25,198 bases of DNA from a virus. The stretch is from IMG/VR virus record IMGVR_UViG_3300021247_000197, positions 1 to 25,198 of that record, one strand, 5' to 3'. Shown one piece after another: positions 10,146-25,198 of this stretch (the stretch's first letter is position 1; each line of letters begins with the position of its first letter). Position numbers and translations under genes: made by a program. A model generated the notes under the pieces. That model searched no databases and had not been told where the DNA came from. It was given only the letters and a program-made list of their open reading frames with translations.

Positions 10146-13100
10146 ATGCCTTATGATATACAGCTCCCTGACGGTCGCATTGTTGAGGGTATTCCTGACA
10201 GCGTTGATCCTGTAGCTGCCAAAGCCCGCATCCAACAATCGATGCCGGATTTGTTTAAGCAAGAAAAACCAGAAGAGAAGCAATCGTTTCTTCGCTCGGT
10301 TGCTGATATTCCGCTGCAGCTGCAAGCAGACTACACTAACACTATCCGTTCTCAATTAAATACATTTGGTCTGGCTGGTGGCAAAACTGATAAGTTTCTT
10401 AAAGATGTAGCTGAGCATATACAAAGCTTAAAGAGTTCTGGGTCTAAGAAAGATGCGGAAGAAGCAGCTCGCATCATGAAAGAGGCTGAGGATAAAGGTT
10501 TTGGTGATCAACTACTTGCTGCAGGTAAAGCGTTTGCGCAAAACCCACTAGAGAATGTTGCTGGCGCTGTTGGTTCTTTAGTTCCGCAGTTAGTGTTCGG
10601 TCCGTTTGGTAAAGTAGCACAAGCTTTTGGTGGTGGTGCTGCAGGTGCAGGTGCTGTTAAGACTGCTATCTACGACACAGTCAAAGAAGAACTAGCTAAG
10701 AACAAGAAGTTAACTCCTGAACAAGTAGAAGCTCGTGCACAAAAAGCACAAGAGTATTTTGGTGAAAACTGGGACACTATTTCGGGTGGTGTTGCGCTTG
10801 GTGCGCTTGAGGGCATCACCGGTGTTAATCCTGCAATTAACCGAATCATATTTAATAAAGCGACTAAAAGAATCAGCGCAGAAGCAGCAGAGCAAGCCGC
10901 TAAAGGTACGGCTAAAGGTGCTATTGCTAAAGGCGCTGTTAAAGAAGCTACACCTGAATTCTTACAAGGTTCTGAAGAGCAAGTTGCTCAAAACGTTGCG
11001 CTCCAACGTGAAGGTATTGATACGCCTACATTCCGTGGTGCTGTATCACAAGGCGCATTAGAAGGTTTAACCGGTGGTGTTCTAGGCGGCGCTACTGGGC
11101 GAATAGAGTTGGCACAAGCTCGTGCACGTCAACAACAACTTGAACAGATTAACGAAGACTTAGCACAAGGTCCTGCAACGGGTTCTCCTGAGCAACGAGT
11201 ACAACAACTAGCTGCGCAGATACAAAGCCAGACAGGCATGGACGAGAAGTTAGCAATGATGACTGCTATGCAGTTAATCGCCGACGAAGAGAAGTCCACT
11301 GCGGGTAAACAAGTAGAAGCAAGTGAGCCTAAAGGCAAGAAGGGTAAGAAGCAGAAGAAAGCAGACAAAGCCGCTGAAGCTGCTGCAACTAACGTACCTC
11401 CTAACCCAGCGCTGGGTGTTCCGCTATTTGTTTTTGACACACCTGAGGAAGCTCAGAAACGTGTAGCAGTATTACAAGCTAATCGTCCTAACGACCAGAT
11501 TTCTATGTCTGAGATGGATGACGGTAAATTTGCTATATTTGCTAAACCTAAAACTGCAACGGAGACTAGCGATGTCACTACTGCAAATACGCCTAGTGCA
11601 ACAACCCCTAGTGGAACGCCTGACGTTAGCACAGCTGCAGGAAGCGCTGCATTGCCTGCTGTCGGGGGAGGAACCCAACCCGGAATTGAAAATGCCACAC
11701 CTGACCAGACAGGACTGGGAACAAGTAGCGGTGTTACTGGACAACCTGTTGCGGGAGCGGGAGTACAGCCTAGTGCATTAGCACCGTTAGGGCAGCCACA
11801 ACCTGACCAGACTAGTCAGATTACTCCTGACCAGATAGCCGCAGCGCAGCAACAAGAACAACAACGAGTACAGCAAGAGCAACAACGTGCTGAACTACAA
11901 ACGGTACACGACGAAACAACTAAAGCATTCGATGAAGCTAGGGCTGCATATGACTTAGCACGTCAATCTGATGATCCTAAAGCTGTATGGGCAGCTGCTG
12001 ACCAGTATGAAAAGGCTCGTGATGCATTTATCAAATCTAGAAAAGCTTTGGGTATCACAGAAGCCGAACAAGAAGAAATTGAGCCGACCGACCCCGAGGC
12101 AGAAGCAGCCACATCCGCGCTAACTAAAGCTGCAGACAACGTTATTAACATTGATGACGCACGTAAAGAGAAACGTGAAAAAGGTAAAGGCGAACCAGCG
12201 ATTGTGCGTCGTAGTAAAAGAGACGCTGACAAGATGTTGGAATCCGCTATCTCAGGTAAGTCTGGGTTAATCAATGTAATTCAAAAACTGCAAACTGAAC
12301 TAGCCGCTGCAGAAGCTGCATTGCAACCATATGGCGGCGTAAATATAGATCCCGAAGTGCTTAAGCGTCGTGGTGAAACATTAGGTGATCGCCTAACAGC
12401 CGCAGCTAACGAAAGCATAGGCACTTCAGAAATATCCCCCGAAGCTAAACGTGCGCGAGAGGATATGGATATTGCTGACGTTGAAGGTGCATATTTCCAT
12501 TACTTAAACACGCAACGTACTTTAGAAGGCGCATTAAAAAGCTTAGCTGAGTTTGATGTTAACCCACGCTTTGAAGCACACCCTTCTAGGGAAAAAGTGC
12601 ATGCGTTTATGAATTCTTTGCCGAAGCAGCAAGCATTGGCAGCGTATAAGAGTGTCTTAGCTAAAGAAGAAAGTTTAGCTCCTGCCGAAGAACAAATTGC
12701 GCCTAAGAAAGAAGGCCCAGCTCCTACCGTTGCAATTAAGAAACGCCGTAAAGTAGTTATACCGGGTAGAACATCAGCTAAGCGTAAAACACAAACTGTT
12801 ACTAGCACTGCTACGGATGATAGGTTTGAGTCGTACTCTGGACAGTCAGTAGTTAAAGCACTGCAACATATTCAAGCTACAGGTAATGAGTTTGAACGTG
12901 CGTTGGCTACACGCATGCTAGCTAGGGACAACATCGGTTCTATCAAAGACACTACGTTCTATGTAGTCAACCCTACAGACACAAACATAATAGATAACTT
13001 AGGCGAAGACTTCGATACCGCTAATGGTTTATATGTATTGGGCGAAACCAGCAAAGGCGCTAAAGATTTTGTGTTTGTGCGCGGTTCAGGTTTTGGTACA

Positions 13101-16100
13101 CAAGAAGATGCGAATGGCGTTAACAACGTAACTGTACTGCACGAAGCATTACACGCAACAGTAAACAAACGTATCTTGTACGCTATCTATGCTAAGCAAT
13201 ATGGGCTACCAATTGATGAGAACCTAGCTAAGAGCTATGACTCGTTAACCAACCTGCTTGATAGAGCGCAAGATAGAATCAACGCTATGTATACCGAGTC
13301 CAAAGCAAATGGTACTCCGATGCCTGCTTACTTTGGTAGGTTGTCTAGTGGCGGCGCATTTGATGACTTAACTGAGTTTGTTACTTACGGCATGACCGAC
13401 CCTGACATGCAAGCATTCTTGCGTGATGAAGTACAAGGTGTCGAAGCTAAGTCTAACGCTATGGATGGGTTCGTTCGTGCGATCTTGAACATGTTAGGTC
13501 TTGATGCTAGCCACATGTCTGGGCTGCGTGACTTGATTGAGTATACAAATAATATAGCTGCGTCTGTAGAAATAACTCCAACAGAAGCATCGATAGCTAA
13601 AGAGATATTAGACATAGATGAAATTACTAACATCAATGATGTGTCTAAGAAAGTTAAGAAGAAACAAAAGACAGCTGCACAACAGATGGCGGCTATTGAT
13701 CTATCTAATCAAACTAAGTCGTTAGAACAGCTAGGCACGATCAGCAATGCTTTGCGCAACCCGTCTGACATAGGCGACTACATGCGCATTAACTTCAGCA
13801 ACATAAACGAAGGCGCAATGAAAGCTATGCTGGCTGTGTTACCTACTAACGAAGTTGTTAAGATGGGTGTAGATCGTGGCATCGTGTCGTTGCAAGATGT
13901 AGACAATAGCGTTCGTGCTTTGGCTACTACTCGTCTACGTATGCTTAATAAAGTACAAGACGTTGCAGTGCCGTGGATTGGCTTAGACGCAAAGATGCAA
14001 ACTAAGCTTGCTAACGTTATGCACTTAGCCACAATAAATCAGTATGATCCTGCTATACAAAAAGGTGGCAACCCACTGCTAGATGGCATGTATAAGCAGT
14101 TAGATCCAGATGCTAAACAGATATACAAAAACGTACGCGACTTCTATCAGTCTAACTACAACGCATACAAAGTATTACTACAGCAGAACGTTAAAGACTC
14201 TGGCGTTGAAGGTGATGAGAACGATATAAACACACCTAAAGGTAGGCTAGCTGCTACGCTGCGTAATGCATTCGAGAAAGAAAAGACTAAAGGTCCGTAC
14301 TTCCCGTTGATGCGTTATGGTGATTACTGGCTAAGCTTCGGTAAGAAAGACAACCGTGAGTTCTACATGTTTGAGTCCGCAGGGCAAAGAGATTTGTTCT
14401 TGAAGCAGCGCTTGGCTCAGCTCAATAGAAAAGGTGATAAGCGTTCATTTGAGCAAATGGTTGTAGATAAAGATGCTGACATTGGTAACGATGCTAATGG
14501 TATGCGCAAGAAAGTAATTAACTCTAACGAAGGGTTAAAGCAAGTTCTTGAGCTTATAGAGAACACTAAAGACTTAGGCGACGAAGCTACTAAGAAAGAA
14601 ATGAAAGACCGAGTGTATCAGTTGCACTTAATGTCTTTACCTGACCAATCTATACGTAAACAATTTATACATCGTAAAGATAATGGCGTAGCTGGTTTCA
14701 GTGGTGATGCACTGCGTAACTTCATTAACGTTGGCACTCGCATGGCTAGTCAGTTGGCACGGGTTCAACATGGCAATAAGATAACTAACGCTATAAGTGG
14801 TGCAAACGAAGCAATCAAAGGCAACCCAGATAAAGCTAAGTTAGAGAACATAGTTAAGGAAGTGACTACTCGTGCAGAAGCAGAGTTGAACCCACCTATG
14901 TCAGACTCATTAGCAGAGAAGCTAGCTAACACTGCAAACAAAGTATCGTTCTTGTACTTGTTAACTTCTGCTAAGTCCGCTGCTAACCAGATGTTTGGTT
15001 TGATTAACTTTACTATACCTACGCTAGCCGCTAGACATGGTTTGGTTCGTACGCTTAACGAAGCACGTAAATATATGTTCTTGGGCTACGGTCAACTTGG
15101 TGTTAGTAAAGTAGACGCTAAAGGCAATACAACTTGGCATGCTCCATCTATTGCGCTATCTGAACGTGCGCAAAGTGGCCCAGAAAAAATAGCAATCATG
15201 CGCATGCAAGAGCTAGGTATTGCAGACATGACACGTACATATGATTTATATGGTCGTAGAGGCGCACCGTCTGCTACATACAACGACACATGGAATAAAG
15301 TAACAGGGTATATGGGGGCATTATTTCATCACGGTGAACGTCTATCTCGTGAGATTACATTCATGACTTCGTTCCGTCTGTCGTACGAAAAGACTAAAGA
15401 CATAGAAGGTTCGATTCAGCAAGCTATCAAAGATACAAACGAAGCATTGTTTGACTACTCTGGTTGGAATAGACCTCGCGCATTGCGTAGTCCCGGTGTG
15501 CGAGTAATTGCACAGTTTAAACAATTCCCTATGTTCGTTACGTTGTACTTAGCACGTAATGGTTACAACATGATCAAAGCAAACTCTACAGGTAAAGAGC
15601 GTATTGAAGCTGCGACTATGTTGTTTGGGACGCTATTTACTACAGGTTTGATGGCAGGCGCTGCTGGCTCTGTTGGCTTCAGTACTATCATGGGTGTATG
15701 CCAAGCTATACGTAACATGGCACGTGATGATGGTGAAGAGTGGCCTTTAGAAGAAGACGATCTTGAGTTGTGGTTCCGTAACATCTATTTACCTAAAGTA
15801 TGGGGTGACGCTAAGTTTATGGGTATGAACATAGCTGAGTTAATTGATTCCGGTGTACTTAATACTGCTACAGGCTACGATGTTGCATCAGGTATATCGT
15901 TAAACAACATGTGGTTCCATGACACACCTGATGCTATGAACTGGAAAGACGGCTTTGATCGTTTCTTAGTATCGTTGCAAGGTCCTGCTGTAGGTGTAGC
16001 CAAACAAGCATTCTCATCTATAGATGATTTTAATGCTGGGGACAACCTAAAAGGTGCAGAGAAACTTACTCCTGCTTTTGCTAAAGGCGCAGTCACAGCG

Positions 16101-16556
16101 CTTAGATACGCTACTGAAGGTGCGTTAACTAAAGATAAAAACGAACTTAAAGCTAAAGAAGATTTTACTTATGCGCAGTTGTTTGCACAGGCATTGGGTT
16201 ATCGCACCACAGGTTTAGCACAGATCATGAACAACAACTTTGCTATCCAACAACAAGTGCAAAAGTTGGAGCGTACTCGCAAAGACTTGATGACTAAACT
16301 GGACAATGCTATTGAGACAGACAACGATGACTTAATAGATAAAGCAACGGATGAAATAGACGCATTTAGTGATCGCTATCCAACATATCAGATTACTGAT
16401 AAAGATATAGCTAACTCACTGAAAGCCCGTGCGAAACGCGCAGCTAAGACAGAACGTGGTTTATACCTAGACCGTAAAGCAGAAGACTTTGACTACCTAA
16501 TAGACCGTGCTAGACGCACTCTGGAAGAGGAAGAACGAGCAGCTCGAAGTCAATAA
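10146..16556 (+). CDS. Giant internal virion protein (2136 aa) with HExxH metallopeptidase-like domain
   Basis: The start is an ATG with AAGAGG just upstream. The N-terminus MPYDIQLPDGRIVEGIPDSV is a common opening of large phage ejection proteins. Residues 100-320 contain glycine-rich hydrophobic helices, and 325-640 are low-complexity Gln/Ala/Pro/Thr linkers. His999-Glu1000-Ala-Leu-His1003 in VTVLHEALHATV is an HExxH zinc site, and Glu1077 in DDLTEFVTYGMTDP could be the third ligand. Residues 1590-2136 resemble the large polyvalent-protein C-terminal region: FLYLLTSAKSAANQMFGLIN, RVIAQFKQFPMFVTLYLARN near 1786, and a hydrophobic span from about 1825. The probable role is to enter the host envelope at infection and help move DNA inward, as T7 gp16 does. 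No lytic transglycosylase motif was seen. It is the last gene of the + module. Confidence 0.65.
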   Translation: MPYDIQLPDGRIVEGIPDSVDPVAAKARIQQSMPDLFKQEKPEEKQSFLRSVADIPLQLQADYTNTIRSQLNTFGLAGGKTDKFLKDVAEHIQSLKSSGSKKDAEEAARIMKEAEDKGFGDQLLAAGKAFAQNPLENVAGAVGSLVPQLVFGPFGKVAQAFGGGAAGAGAVKTAIYDTVKEELAKNKKLTPEQVEARAQKAQEYFGENWDTISGGVALGALEGITGVNPAINRIIFNKATKRISAEAAEQAAKGTAKGAIAKGAVKEATPEFLQGSEEQVAQNVALQREGIDTPTFRGAVSQGALEGLTGGVLGGATGRIELAQARARQQQLEQINEDLAQGPATGSPEQRVQQLAAQIQSQTGMDEKLAMMTAMQLIADEEKSTAGKQVEASEPKGKKGKKQKKADKAAEAAATNVPPNPALGVPLFVFDTPEEAQKRVAVLQANRPNDQISMSEMDDGKFAIFAKPKTATETSDVTTANTPSATTPSGTPDVSTAAGSAALPAVGGGTQPGIENATPDQTGLGTSSGVTGQPVAGAGVQPSALAPLGQPQPDQTSQITPDQIAAAQQQEQQRVQQEQQRAELQTVHDETTKAFDEARAAYDLARQSDDPKAVWAAADQYEKARDAFIKSRKALGITEAEQEEIEPTDPEAEAATSALTKAADNVINIDDARKEKREKGKGEPAIVRRSKRDADKMLESAISGKSGLINVIQKLQTELAAAEAALQPYGGVNIDPEVLKRRGETLGDRLTAAANESIGTSEISPEAKRAREDMDIADVEGAYFHYLNTQRTLEGALKSLAEFDVNPRFEAHPSREKVHAFMNSLPKQQALAAYKSVLAKEESLAPAEEQIAPKKEGPAPTVAIKKRRKVVIPGRTSAKRKTQTVTSTATDDRFESYSGQSVVKALQHIQATGNEFERALATRMLARDNIGSIKDTTFYVVNPTDTNIIDNLGEDFDTANGLYVLGETSKGAKDFVFVRGSGFGTQEDANGVNNVTVLHEALHATVNKRILYAIYAKQYGLPIDENLAKSYDSLTNLLDRAQDRINAMYTESKANGTPMPAYFGRLSSGGAFDDLTEFVTYGMTDPDMQAFLRDEVQGVEAKSNAMDGFVRAILNMLGLDASHMSGLRDLIEYTNNIAASVEITPTEASIAKEILDIDEITNINDVSKKVKKKQKTAAQQMAAIDLSNQTKSLEQLGTISNALRNPSDIGDYMRINFSNINEGAMKAMLAVLPTNEVVKMGVDRGIVSLQDVDNSVRALATTRLRMLNKVQDVAVPWIGLDAKMQTKLANVMHLATINQYDPAIQKGGNPLLDGMYKQLDPDAKQIYKNVRDFYQSNYNAYKVLLQQNVKDSGVEGDENDINTPKGRLAATLRNAFEKEKTKGPYFPLMRYGDYWLSFGKKDNREFYMFESAGQRDLFLKQRLAQLNRKGDKRSFEQMVVDKDADIGNDANGMRKKVINSNEGLKQVLELIENTKDLGDEATKKEMKDRVYQLHLMSLPDQSIRKQFIHRKDNGVAGFSGDALRNFINVGTRMASQLARVQHGNKITNAISGANEAIKGNPDKAKLENIVKEVTTRAEAELNPPMSDSLAEKLANTANKVSFLYLLTSAKSAANQMFGLINFTIPTLAARHGLVRTLNEARKYMFLGYGQLGVSKVDAKGNTTWHAPSIALSERAQSGPEKIAIMRMQELGIADMTRTYDLYGRRGAPSATYNDTWNKVTGYMGALFHHGERLSREITFMTSFRLSYEKTKDIEGSIQQAIKDTNEALFDYSGWNRPRALRSPGVRVIAQFKQFPMFVTLYLARNGYNMIKANSTGKERIEAATMLFGTLFTTGLMAGAAGSVGFSTIMGVCQAIRNMARDDGEEWPLEEDDLELWFRNIYLPKVWGDAKFMGMNIAELIDSGVLNTATGYDVASGISLNNMWFHDTPDAMNWKDGFDRFLVSLQGPAVGVAKQAFSSIDDFNAGDNLKGAEKLTPAFAKGAVTALRYATEGALTKDKNELKAKEDFTYAQLFAQALGYRTTGLAQIMNNNFAIQQQVQKLERTRKDLMTKLDNAIETDNDDLIDKATDEIDAFSDRYPTYQITDKDIANSLKARAKRAAKTERGLYLDRKAEDFDYLIDRARRTLEEEERAARSQ

Positions 16557-16582
16557 AAAAATCCCCCGATCTGAGTCGGGGG
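16555..16582 (-). terminator. Rho-independent terminator for the leftward replication module
   Basis: The stem CCCCCGA (16563-16569) pairs perfectly with TCGGGGG (16576-16582) around a six-base loop. Read on the minus strand, the hairpin is followed by A and then seven Ts (16561-16555), the classic intrinsic form. On the plus strand it is followed by TAAAAACT, so it is poor in that direction. It lies 67 bases past the stop of the 64-aa gene. Its U-tract touches the stop codon of the 2136-aa gene, so it marks the convergence of the two modules. Confidence 0.88.
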
Positions 16583-16649
16583 TAAAAACTTCCGTAGAAG
16601 GAGAATGACGACTGAAGGAGCTAACCACAGCCGTCCAAAGCAGTATAAC

Positions 16650-16844
16650 CTAAACCCTCCATATTCGGACCCCACGGGTGTTAAGTTCTATAACATCTTT
16701 CATTACAATGTCATACCCTAGACGCTTTGTAATACGCTGTATCTCTTCTCTAGCTTCAGCCGTGTCTAGGCATGGGATAAAGAACGAGTGGTTGCGCTTA
16801 AAGCTCTTCCAGTTAACTCTGTACTGTACTCCCGCTATCCGCAT
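16650..16844 (-). CDS. Small conserved-type phage protein (64 aa), unknown function
   Basis: A 64-aa protein whose ATG at 16844 lies inside the end of the primase gene (32-bp overlap). GAGAT on the minus strand is a modest ribosome-binding site. The sequence VQYRVNWKSFKRNHSFFIPC, then TAEAREEIQRITKRLGYD, then VRIWRV alternates basic strand-forming segments with one amphipathic helix, giving a compact alpha/beta layout of about 60 residues. The composition is that of a real protein, and the basic charge would suit contact with nucleic acid or a replication protein. No catalytic motif is present. It is the last gene before the terminator and probably shares a transcript with the primase. I do not recognise a named family. 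Confidence 0.6.
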   Translation of the reverse strand: MRIAGVQYRVNWKSFKRNHSFFIPCLDTAEAREEIQRITKRLGYDIVMKDVIELNTRGVRIWRV

Positions 16845-23639: not shown

Positions 23640-24308
23640 CTAGCTCCTTCTATTATGTGGGCACTTATCGACTGGACAGAACTTACATAGTGGACCTGAG
23701 TTAGGATTCCATACGTTGTTAGTCATAGCCGCTTCTAATCTCGTTAACTCCGGATGCATAGTTGACATGTAAGCAGTAGCAAACATTGCTTCATGTTCTT
23801 TTTGTACAACTTCGTTACTCACTACAAACAACAAAGCAGACTTAAGTGTTTTAACTTGTGGGTAGTGCAAGAACACCGCACCTGCAAGTAAGTCTAGTTG
23901 TTTAGTATCCGCATACTTAGCGTTCTTACTAGTCTTGTAATCAACCAAGAAACCTTTATCACCTTGTATGATTAGTAAGTCAGCTATACCTCGCCACCAG
24001 ACATTCTTATCAAAGAATTCGCAAGGTATATACTTGCCATCTTTCTTCGCCACGCCCAGTTTGATCTCACAGTGTTTCTCACCTTCAATCTTTCGTAACG
24101 CTTCAAGCGTATCTCTAATAAAGCTGAACTTTGCGGGTATCTCCGTACCGTCACGTATGAAAAACTCCGCAGCACTATGAAGCTCCGTGCCATAGATCGT
24201 TGCAGCCGTGTCCGAATCTTTAACATCCTTCGCTACCTTTAAGTGATAGTACTTCTTAGGGCACTGATCGAAAGTTTTGATACTGCTGTAAGACCAAGCT
24301 ATTGACAT
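23640..24308 (-). CDS. Cas4-like PD-(D/E)XK exonuclease with Fe-S cysteines
   Basis: A 222-aa protein taken from ATG 24308, seven bases after GGAG and overlapping the polymerase stop (TGATG). A TTG two codons upstream is less likely. All parts of the RecB/Cas4-type nuclease are visible: Cys16 (FDQCPKKYYHL), His44 in YGTELHSAAE, Asp110 in WWRGIADLLI, Asp123-Tyr-Lys125 in FLVDYKTSK, Gln137 in TKQLDLLAGA, and a C-terminal cluster Cys208, Cys211, Cys216 (CKFCPVDKC) that with Cys16 would hold a 4Fe-4S cluster. Such phage enzymes resect DNA ends to give single strands for recombination or packaging. No cas1, cas2 or repeat array is present, so a CRISPR adaptation role is unlikely. It is probably co-translated with the DNA polymerase. 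Confidence 0.85.
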   Translation of the reverse strand: MSIAWSYSSIKTFDQCPKKYYHLKVAKDVKDSDTAATIYGTELHSAAEFFIRDGTEIPAKFSFIRDTLEALRKIEGEKHCEIKLGVAKKDGKYIPCEFFDKNVWWRGIADLLIIQGDKGFLVDYKTSKNAKYADTKQLDLLAGAVFLHYPQVKTLKSALLFVVSNEVVQKEHEAMFATAYMSTMHPELTRLEAAMTNNVWNPNSGPLCKFCPVDKCPHNRRS

Positions 24309-25114
24309 CAACAATCTCCGTATGACTTACCATGCCCTGATTCACAATTCAGTGGCAACTCTAGTGCCCAGTCTGGTCGTATGCGCATGCACATCTCAAC
24401 AAACTCGACTGCTGTACTTGTTTCTTCTTCTGGTACTACGCAAGCAATCGCATCATGCACCGTCATAACTACCTTGTACTTCTTAGCTATGAGTAGCATT
24501 TGATTCCCTATGACTATCCTTGCTAGTGCCTGACACACGTTCTCTGTTACCTTACCGCCGTATATCCTATTCGCTACAGTTGCTTTACCCCTCTTTGTAT
24601 CGTACACCATTTCGTCCGTACCGTCTTCTTTTTTTAACTCACGAACGTTCGGATATTTTAGATACATACCGTTAGGTAACTTAATGCCTTTTTTACCTTC
24701 GACCACTAACAACTTGTCACGCCCAAGATGCGTAATCTTGTTGTCCCGTATGTTAAACAATGCTTTACCTGCTGCTCTCCAGAACGCTGTGATCTGTGGA
24801 TACGTTTCTCGATACACTTGTATGATGCGCTTACATTCTTCTAGTGGCACTTCTACATTGAAGTTCTTAAGTTGCGCCTGAAACTTAGTTGCACCCATGC
24901 CATACCCTGCACCAAGAATAGTTGTCTTTCCGACAAATCTTTCATCTTTGGTAACGTCAGCTTCATCCTTGTTGTATATGGCGGCTGCCATCTTCTTGTA
25001 CACATCTTCGCCCTTCTCAAACGCTTCAACCAAATCATCCTGTTCAGCCAACCACGCTAGCGTCCGCGCTTCGATTTGCGATGAGTCAGAGTCGATCATC
25101 ACCATACCTTTAGG
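24308..25114 (-). CDS. Family A DNA polymerase, C-terminal fragment cut by adapter junction
   Basis: These 268 residues are the C-terminal part of the palm-finger region. Motif A is DSSQIEAR (Asp10 of the fragment), motif B is RFVGKTTILGAGYG (Arg59, Lys63, Tyr71, Gly72) and motif C is TVHDAIACVV (His220, Asp221). These are the catalytic elements of Pol I-type replicases, so this is the phage replicative polymerase. The position aligned with E. coli Phe762 is Leu67. Motif C has Ala where Glu is usual. The frame remains open to 25129, but codons 25115-25129 (MLFRS) are encoded by sequencing adapter. The true gene, expected to be 550-800 residues with or without a 3'-5' exonuclease domain, continues beyond the window. 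Its stop overlaps the Cas4-like start. Confidence 0.9.
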   Translation of the reverse strand, partial: PKGMVMIDSDSSQIEARTLAWLAEQDDLVEAFEKGEDVYKKMAAAIYNKDEADVTKDERFVGKTTILGAGYGMGATKFQAQLKNFNVEVPLEECKRIIQVYRETYPQITAFWRAAGKALFNIRDNKITHLGRDKLLVVEGKKGIKLPNGMYLKYPNVRELKKEDGTDEMVYDTKRGKATVANRIYGGKVTENVCQALARIVIGNQMLLIAKKYKVVMTVHDAIACVVPEEETSTAVEFVEMCMRIRPDWALELPLNCESGHGKSYGDC

Positions 25115-25198
25115 AGATCGGAAGAGCACACGTCTGAAATCCAGTCACATCACGACCTCCTATGCCGCCTTCTGCTTGAAAAAAAAACACTAACACGA
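25115..25198. other. Illumina TruSeq adapter with index ATCACG and poly-A read-through (artefact)
   Basis: From 25115 to 25178 the bases follow the TruSeq read-1 adapter (AGATCGGAAGAGCACACGTC at its start), the six-base index ATCACG (25149-25154) and the flow-cell tail ending TTCTGCTTG, with four substitutions in 64 positions by my alignment. Nine As follow (25179-25187), as when a read runs past the end of its fragment, and then eleven uninformative bases. This is library sequence, not phage DNA. Reading frames that extend into it, on either strand, have false ends. Confidence 0.97.

Follow-up and report, generated by a model that had tools for sequence, protein, structure and literature searches.

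Adaptors are listed among the common contaminants of new submissions (PMC10898089), and vector sequence is frequently located at contig ends (PMC10978663). We found no paper on the subject of adapter-encoded peptides in protein databases, as judged from search entries alone, and a literature query directed at such peptides returned only articles that, by title, concern plant phytochromes and light signalling. The closest counterparts of the locus described here are the adapter-ended contigs in IMG/VR, GTDB genomes and GenBank phages, which carry the same oligonucleotide, in most cases in an outward orientation at the end of a contig. Nothing substantive distinguishes them from the window, the index and the length of the tail being variable. 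Concerning the gene that adjoins the adapter, the counterparts are the phage family A DNA polymerases (PF00476), among which those of Pseudomonas phages phiR18 and KPP25 were the best GenBank phage matches, with 40% identity. The window, that is, the whole stretch of DNA that was analysed, corresponds to an entire virus record of 25198 bases, and the features at its end are the following.

24308..25114, minus strand: family A DNA polymerase, genuine C-terminal 268 residues, cut by the end of the assembly (PF00476, PHROG 17 and upstream continuation in IMG/VR relatives)
25115..25129, minus strand: false N-terminus MLFRS with GTG start, encoded by the adapter (ORF translation; frame closed by an in-frame TGA at 25145-25147)
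25115..25178, plus strand: Illumina TruSeq index adapter from read-through (60 of 64 bases identical)
25149..25154, plus strand: sample index ATCACG, TruSeq index 1 / AD001
25179..25187, plus strand: poly-A run of nine A beyond the adapter end (read from the sequence)
25188..25198, plus strand: 11 bases, probably end-of-read noise, judging from the like pattern at other adapter ends

The sequence ATCACG is TruSeq index 1 (AD001). When positions 25115-25178 were compared without gaps to the 64-nt TruSeq index adapter, 60 bases were identical, and the four mismatches were located at 25139, 25156, 25160 and 25168. The index was identical to that of AD001, whereas 4 to 6 mismatches were counted against the other 11 indices compared. 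The second-best ungapped placement of the adapter in the window, considering both strands, had 33 mismatches. The adapter is directed outward and is terminal, with the nine A's and the 11 further bases being all that precedes the end of the record. The order observed at this end, insert, then AGATCGGAAGAGC..., poly-A and noise, is the layout of a read-through of a short insert. The window's copy is thus like TruSeq index adapter 1 with poly-A in its bases, index, orientation and trailing A's, and differs from it by the four mismatches and the 11 terminal noise bases, as a poor read end would. The initial annotation had described a TruSeq adapter with index ATCACG and a poly-A tail in the last 84 bases and had set alignment to the adapter sequence as a check; the alignment to the oligonucleotide, the identical index and the nine A's agree with this description. 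Near-identity to the oligonucleotide, including a listed index, together with the outward position at a contig end and the poly-A, confirmed that the 84-base end is an adapter artefact and not a real feature. The start at 25115 was also correct, apart from an uncertainty of possibly one base: the codon at the junction is GCT in 6 of 80 relatives, and the A with which the adapter begins could also have originated from the template.

The polymerase fragment matched PF00476 with 108.8 bits (cut-off 34.3) and was assigned to PHROG 17. As its 268 residues cover only positions 151-380 of the 381 in the profile, the gene is a fragment; due to the contig end, it is devoid of the N-terminal part found in other phage family A DNA polymerases (a median of 337 residues in relatives). 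An IMG/VR scan with the fragment provided 573 relatives, of which the best 80 were used; the closest display 87-88% protein identity. Many polymerases in IMG/VR are closer to that of the window than those of GenBank phages, which are at best 40% identical. The upstream comparison covers the 78 of these 80 relatives with at least 28 residues beyond the junction. In all 78 the frame is open through the junction; a stop lies farther upstream in L158, a member of the set of 80. The 28 upstream residues are conserved among the 78 loci (on average 23 of 28 identical in pairwise comparison, 20 at the lowest), whereas identity to the peptide on the adapter side was 1 of 28 in 75 loci and 2 of 28 in the remaining 3. 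No copy of the adapter's initial 13 bases was present in any of the best 80 relatives. The adapter therefore interrupts a sequence that is continuous in relatives (78/78). In the 62 of 80 relatives with an upstream stop within the locus, the polymerase ORF has a median length of 606 residues, 337 of them before the junction, and with 268 residues in the window, under half of the gene is present. Judging from the relatives' sequences, the remaining part would be missing from the record rather than absent in nature. A near-identical contig crossing the junction was not found among the best 80 of the 573 relatives. The polymerase had been proposed to be truncated by the adapter. The continuation in relatives bears out the truncation, but the adapter itself is not the truncating agent, as the assembly stops there.

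On the minus strand, the ORF at 24308-25129 encodes 273 residues and begins at a GTG at 25129 within the adapter, with VLFRS being read as MLFRS. In the frame of the polymerase, the adapter is translated as a stop followed by LDFRRVLFRS, after which the genuine PKGMVM begins; the in-frame TGA at 25145-25147 is also derived from the adapter. The fragment mimics a complete gene because the adapter supplies both an in-frame stop and the GTG. The false N-terminus MLFRS noted in the initial annotation is thus the start that the ORF actually has, and the ATG at 25103-25105 is a possible alternative. Without trimming, the 273-residue protein with its false start can pass as complete. The last 84 bases are untrimmed laboratory adapter without biological meaning, and removing them is advisable before the neighbouring polymerase gene is used. 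For the record itself the value of this result is one of housekeeping only: everything after 25114 should be cut off, and the polymerase needs to be labelled as incomplete.

The distribution of the adapter in public assemblies was investigated with a 24-nt core. The core was present in at least 120 IMG/VR stretches, and 124 of 125 copies among the IMG/VR matches listed were located within 247 nt of the end of the stretch and pointed outward. The sole copy far from an end (L017, 3889-3912) lies 1291 nt in and is followed by other sequence, and is possibly a chimeric join. Among the 80 listed IMG/VR loci, the adapter was found at the contig end in 65 of 66 whole contigs, and many of the listed adapter ends have poly-A and noise behind a full adapter. 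As a control, the core reversed without complementing gave no matches in viral_contigs. The index ATCACG, flanked on both sides by adapter, was found in 29 IMG/VR stretches, within 208 nt of the end in 28 of them and 665 nt in for the other. In genome_contigs (species-level bacterial and archaeal genomes), at least 120 stretches harboured the core, and 122 of 126 copies (genome_contigs matches listed and three phage loci) were located within 300 nt of an end, these stretches often being parts of contigs. Of 50,697 GenBank phage records, 19 matched the terminal 84 bases of the window, as did 3 of 5,426 E. coli genomes; no match was obtained among 72,556 plasmid records. The presence of the same oligonucleotide at many other contig ends indicates that the problem is general.

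At 76 of the 124 adapter ends tested (IMG/VR matches listed), a frame that stays open for 100 residues or more reaches the adapter, and 20 adapter-end frames among the IMG/VR matches listed begin with FRRVLFRS in the same register as the window. It had been predicted that clustering on this N-terminus would group unrelated contigs. When the 20 proteins and the window's fragment were compared (21 proteins, 210 pairs, E 1e-3), 1 of 210 pairs was related without FRRVLFRS and 3 of 210 with it. Two pairs were thus adapter-driven, neither of which involves the window's protein. Adapter residues can accordingly create false links as predicted, but the effect is mild, with few such links and none for the protein in question. 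That adapter-encoded residues reach protein databases was also predicted, and is illustrated by one deposited protein, WZP35516.1 from Enterococcus phage vB_Efs26_KEN12 (PP582185.1 17844-17975; L351 399-530), which spans a TruSeq adapter, poly-A and bases beyond. In NC_047813.1, the RefSeq record of phage Andhra, a TruSeq adapter with the index ACAGTG extends from 18493 to the record end, and the same oligonucleotide is present, inverted, at the 5' end. The annotated repeats of this phage at 14-168 and 18380-18534 (L350 and L349) each contain part of the adapter; as it is present at both ends, the repeat as annotated is partly artificial. With these two GenBank/RefSeq phage records, the adapter problem extends to annotation, and adapter ends could be a simple means of flagging gene starts and terminal repeats that are false in these collections. 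The window is very probably one case of an under-cleaned pool that includes untrimmed TruSeq ends in IMG/VR and in the species-level bacterial and archaeal genomes (at least 120 stretches each), in a deposited phage protein and in the annotated terminal repeats of a RefSeq phage.

We consider it practically certain that the sequence from 25115 onward is artificial, an untrimmed TruSeq adapter read-through, and that the phage genome and the polymerase gene naturally extend past 25114. The adapter identity, outward orientation and terminal position, as well as the continuation of the polymerase in relatives, were observed directly, and a read-through event with missing trimming would account for them. 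In the library, a short fragment of the phage's DNA would have ended at 25114, and the sequencer would have run past this insert into the ligated TruSeq index adapter (ATCACG). The read would have continued beyond the adapter end, giving A's and then noise, and the untrimmed read would then have been used by the assembler to extend the contig end. Among 47 full-length adapter copies in the IMG/VR set (from the matches listed), 29 had no mismatch, 11 had one and 7 had two or more. The four mismatches of the window would place it in the last group, fitting a single low-quality read that carried the end; being more than those in most full-length copies, they show that no consensus of many clean reads underlies this end. 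A search for sister contigs with the exact mutated tail (31 nt) gave no matches in viral_contigs, a search from which records very near the window were possibly excluded.

It is extremely improbable that the adapter was ligated at the true physical end of a linear phage genome, with 25114 as the genome terminus. The record of phage Andhra, with annotated repeats and an adapter attached at both ends, does indicate that adapters can mark possibly real ends. In the window, however, the junction lies inside a polymerase gene that runs through in every one of the 78 relatives compared upstream, no terminal repeats were found within the window, and the contigs of relatives are as long as 66 kb. We assign a similarly minute likelihood to a chimera, formed in the library or during assembly, with the adapter between two genuine pieces of DNA. 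Internal copies occur, as exemplified by the L017 copy among the 125 listed from IMG/VR, but the window ends just 20 bases after the adapter, and these begin with nine A's. Both readings were rejected on these grounds. The chance that the end is genuine phage sequence resembling the adapter by coincidence or descent is smaller still and close to nil; no point in its support was found. In three shuffles of the window (one strand), the best adapter scores were 32-35 mismatches of 64, against the four observed. The absence of matches to the reversed core in viral_contigs and to the 84 bases among the plasmid records also argues against genuine sequence, as does the lack of the adapter at the same position in the best 80 of the 573 relatives. 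The matches obtained were in phages of many hosts, several at record ends, as expected of contamination.

Apart from its adapter-derived end, the window (1-25000) had no megablast match in the 50,697 GenBank phage records, and no tRNA was found in the window. Gene directions converge at 16556-16813. Virion genes are encoded on the plus strand up to 16556, and replication genes on the minus strand from 16813, comprising a DUF927 primase/helicase-like protein, a helicase, an exonuclease and the polymerase. The region 10146-16556 encodes a protein of 2136 residues. Its single Pfam match, to LPD39, is moderate (38.7 bits, cut-off 27), and by that domain the product is predicted to be a large polyvalent protein.
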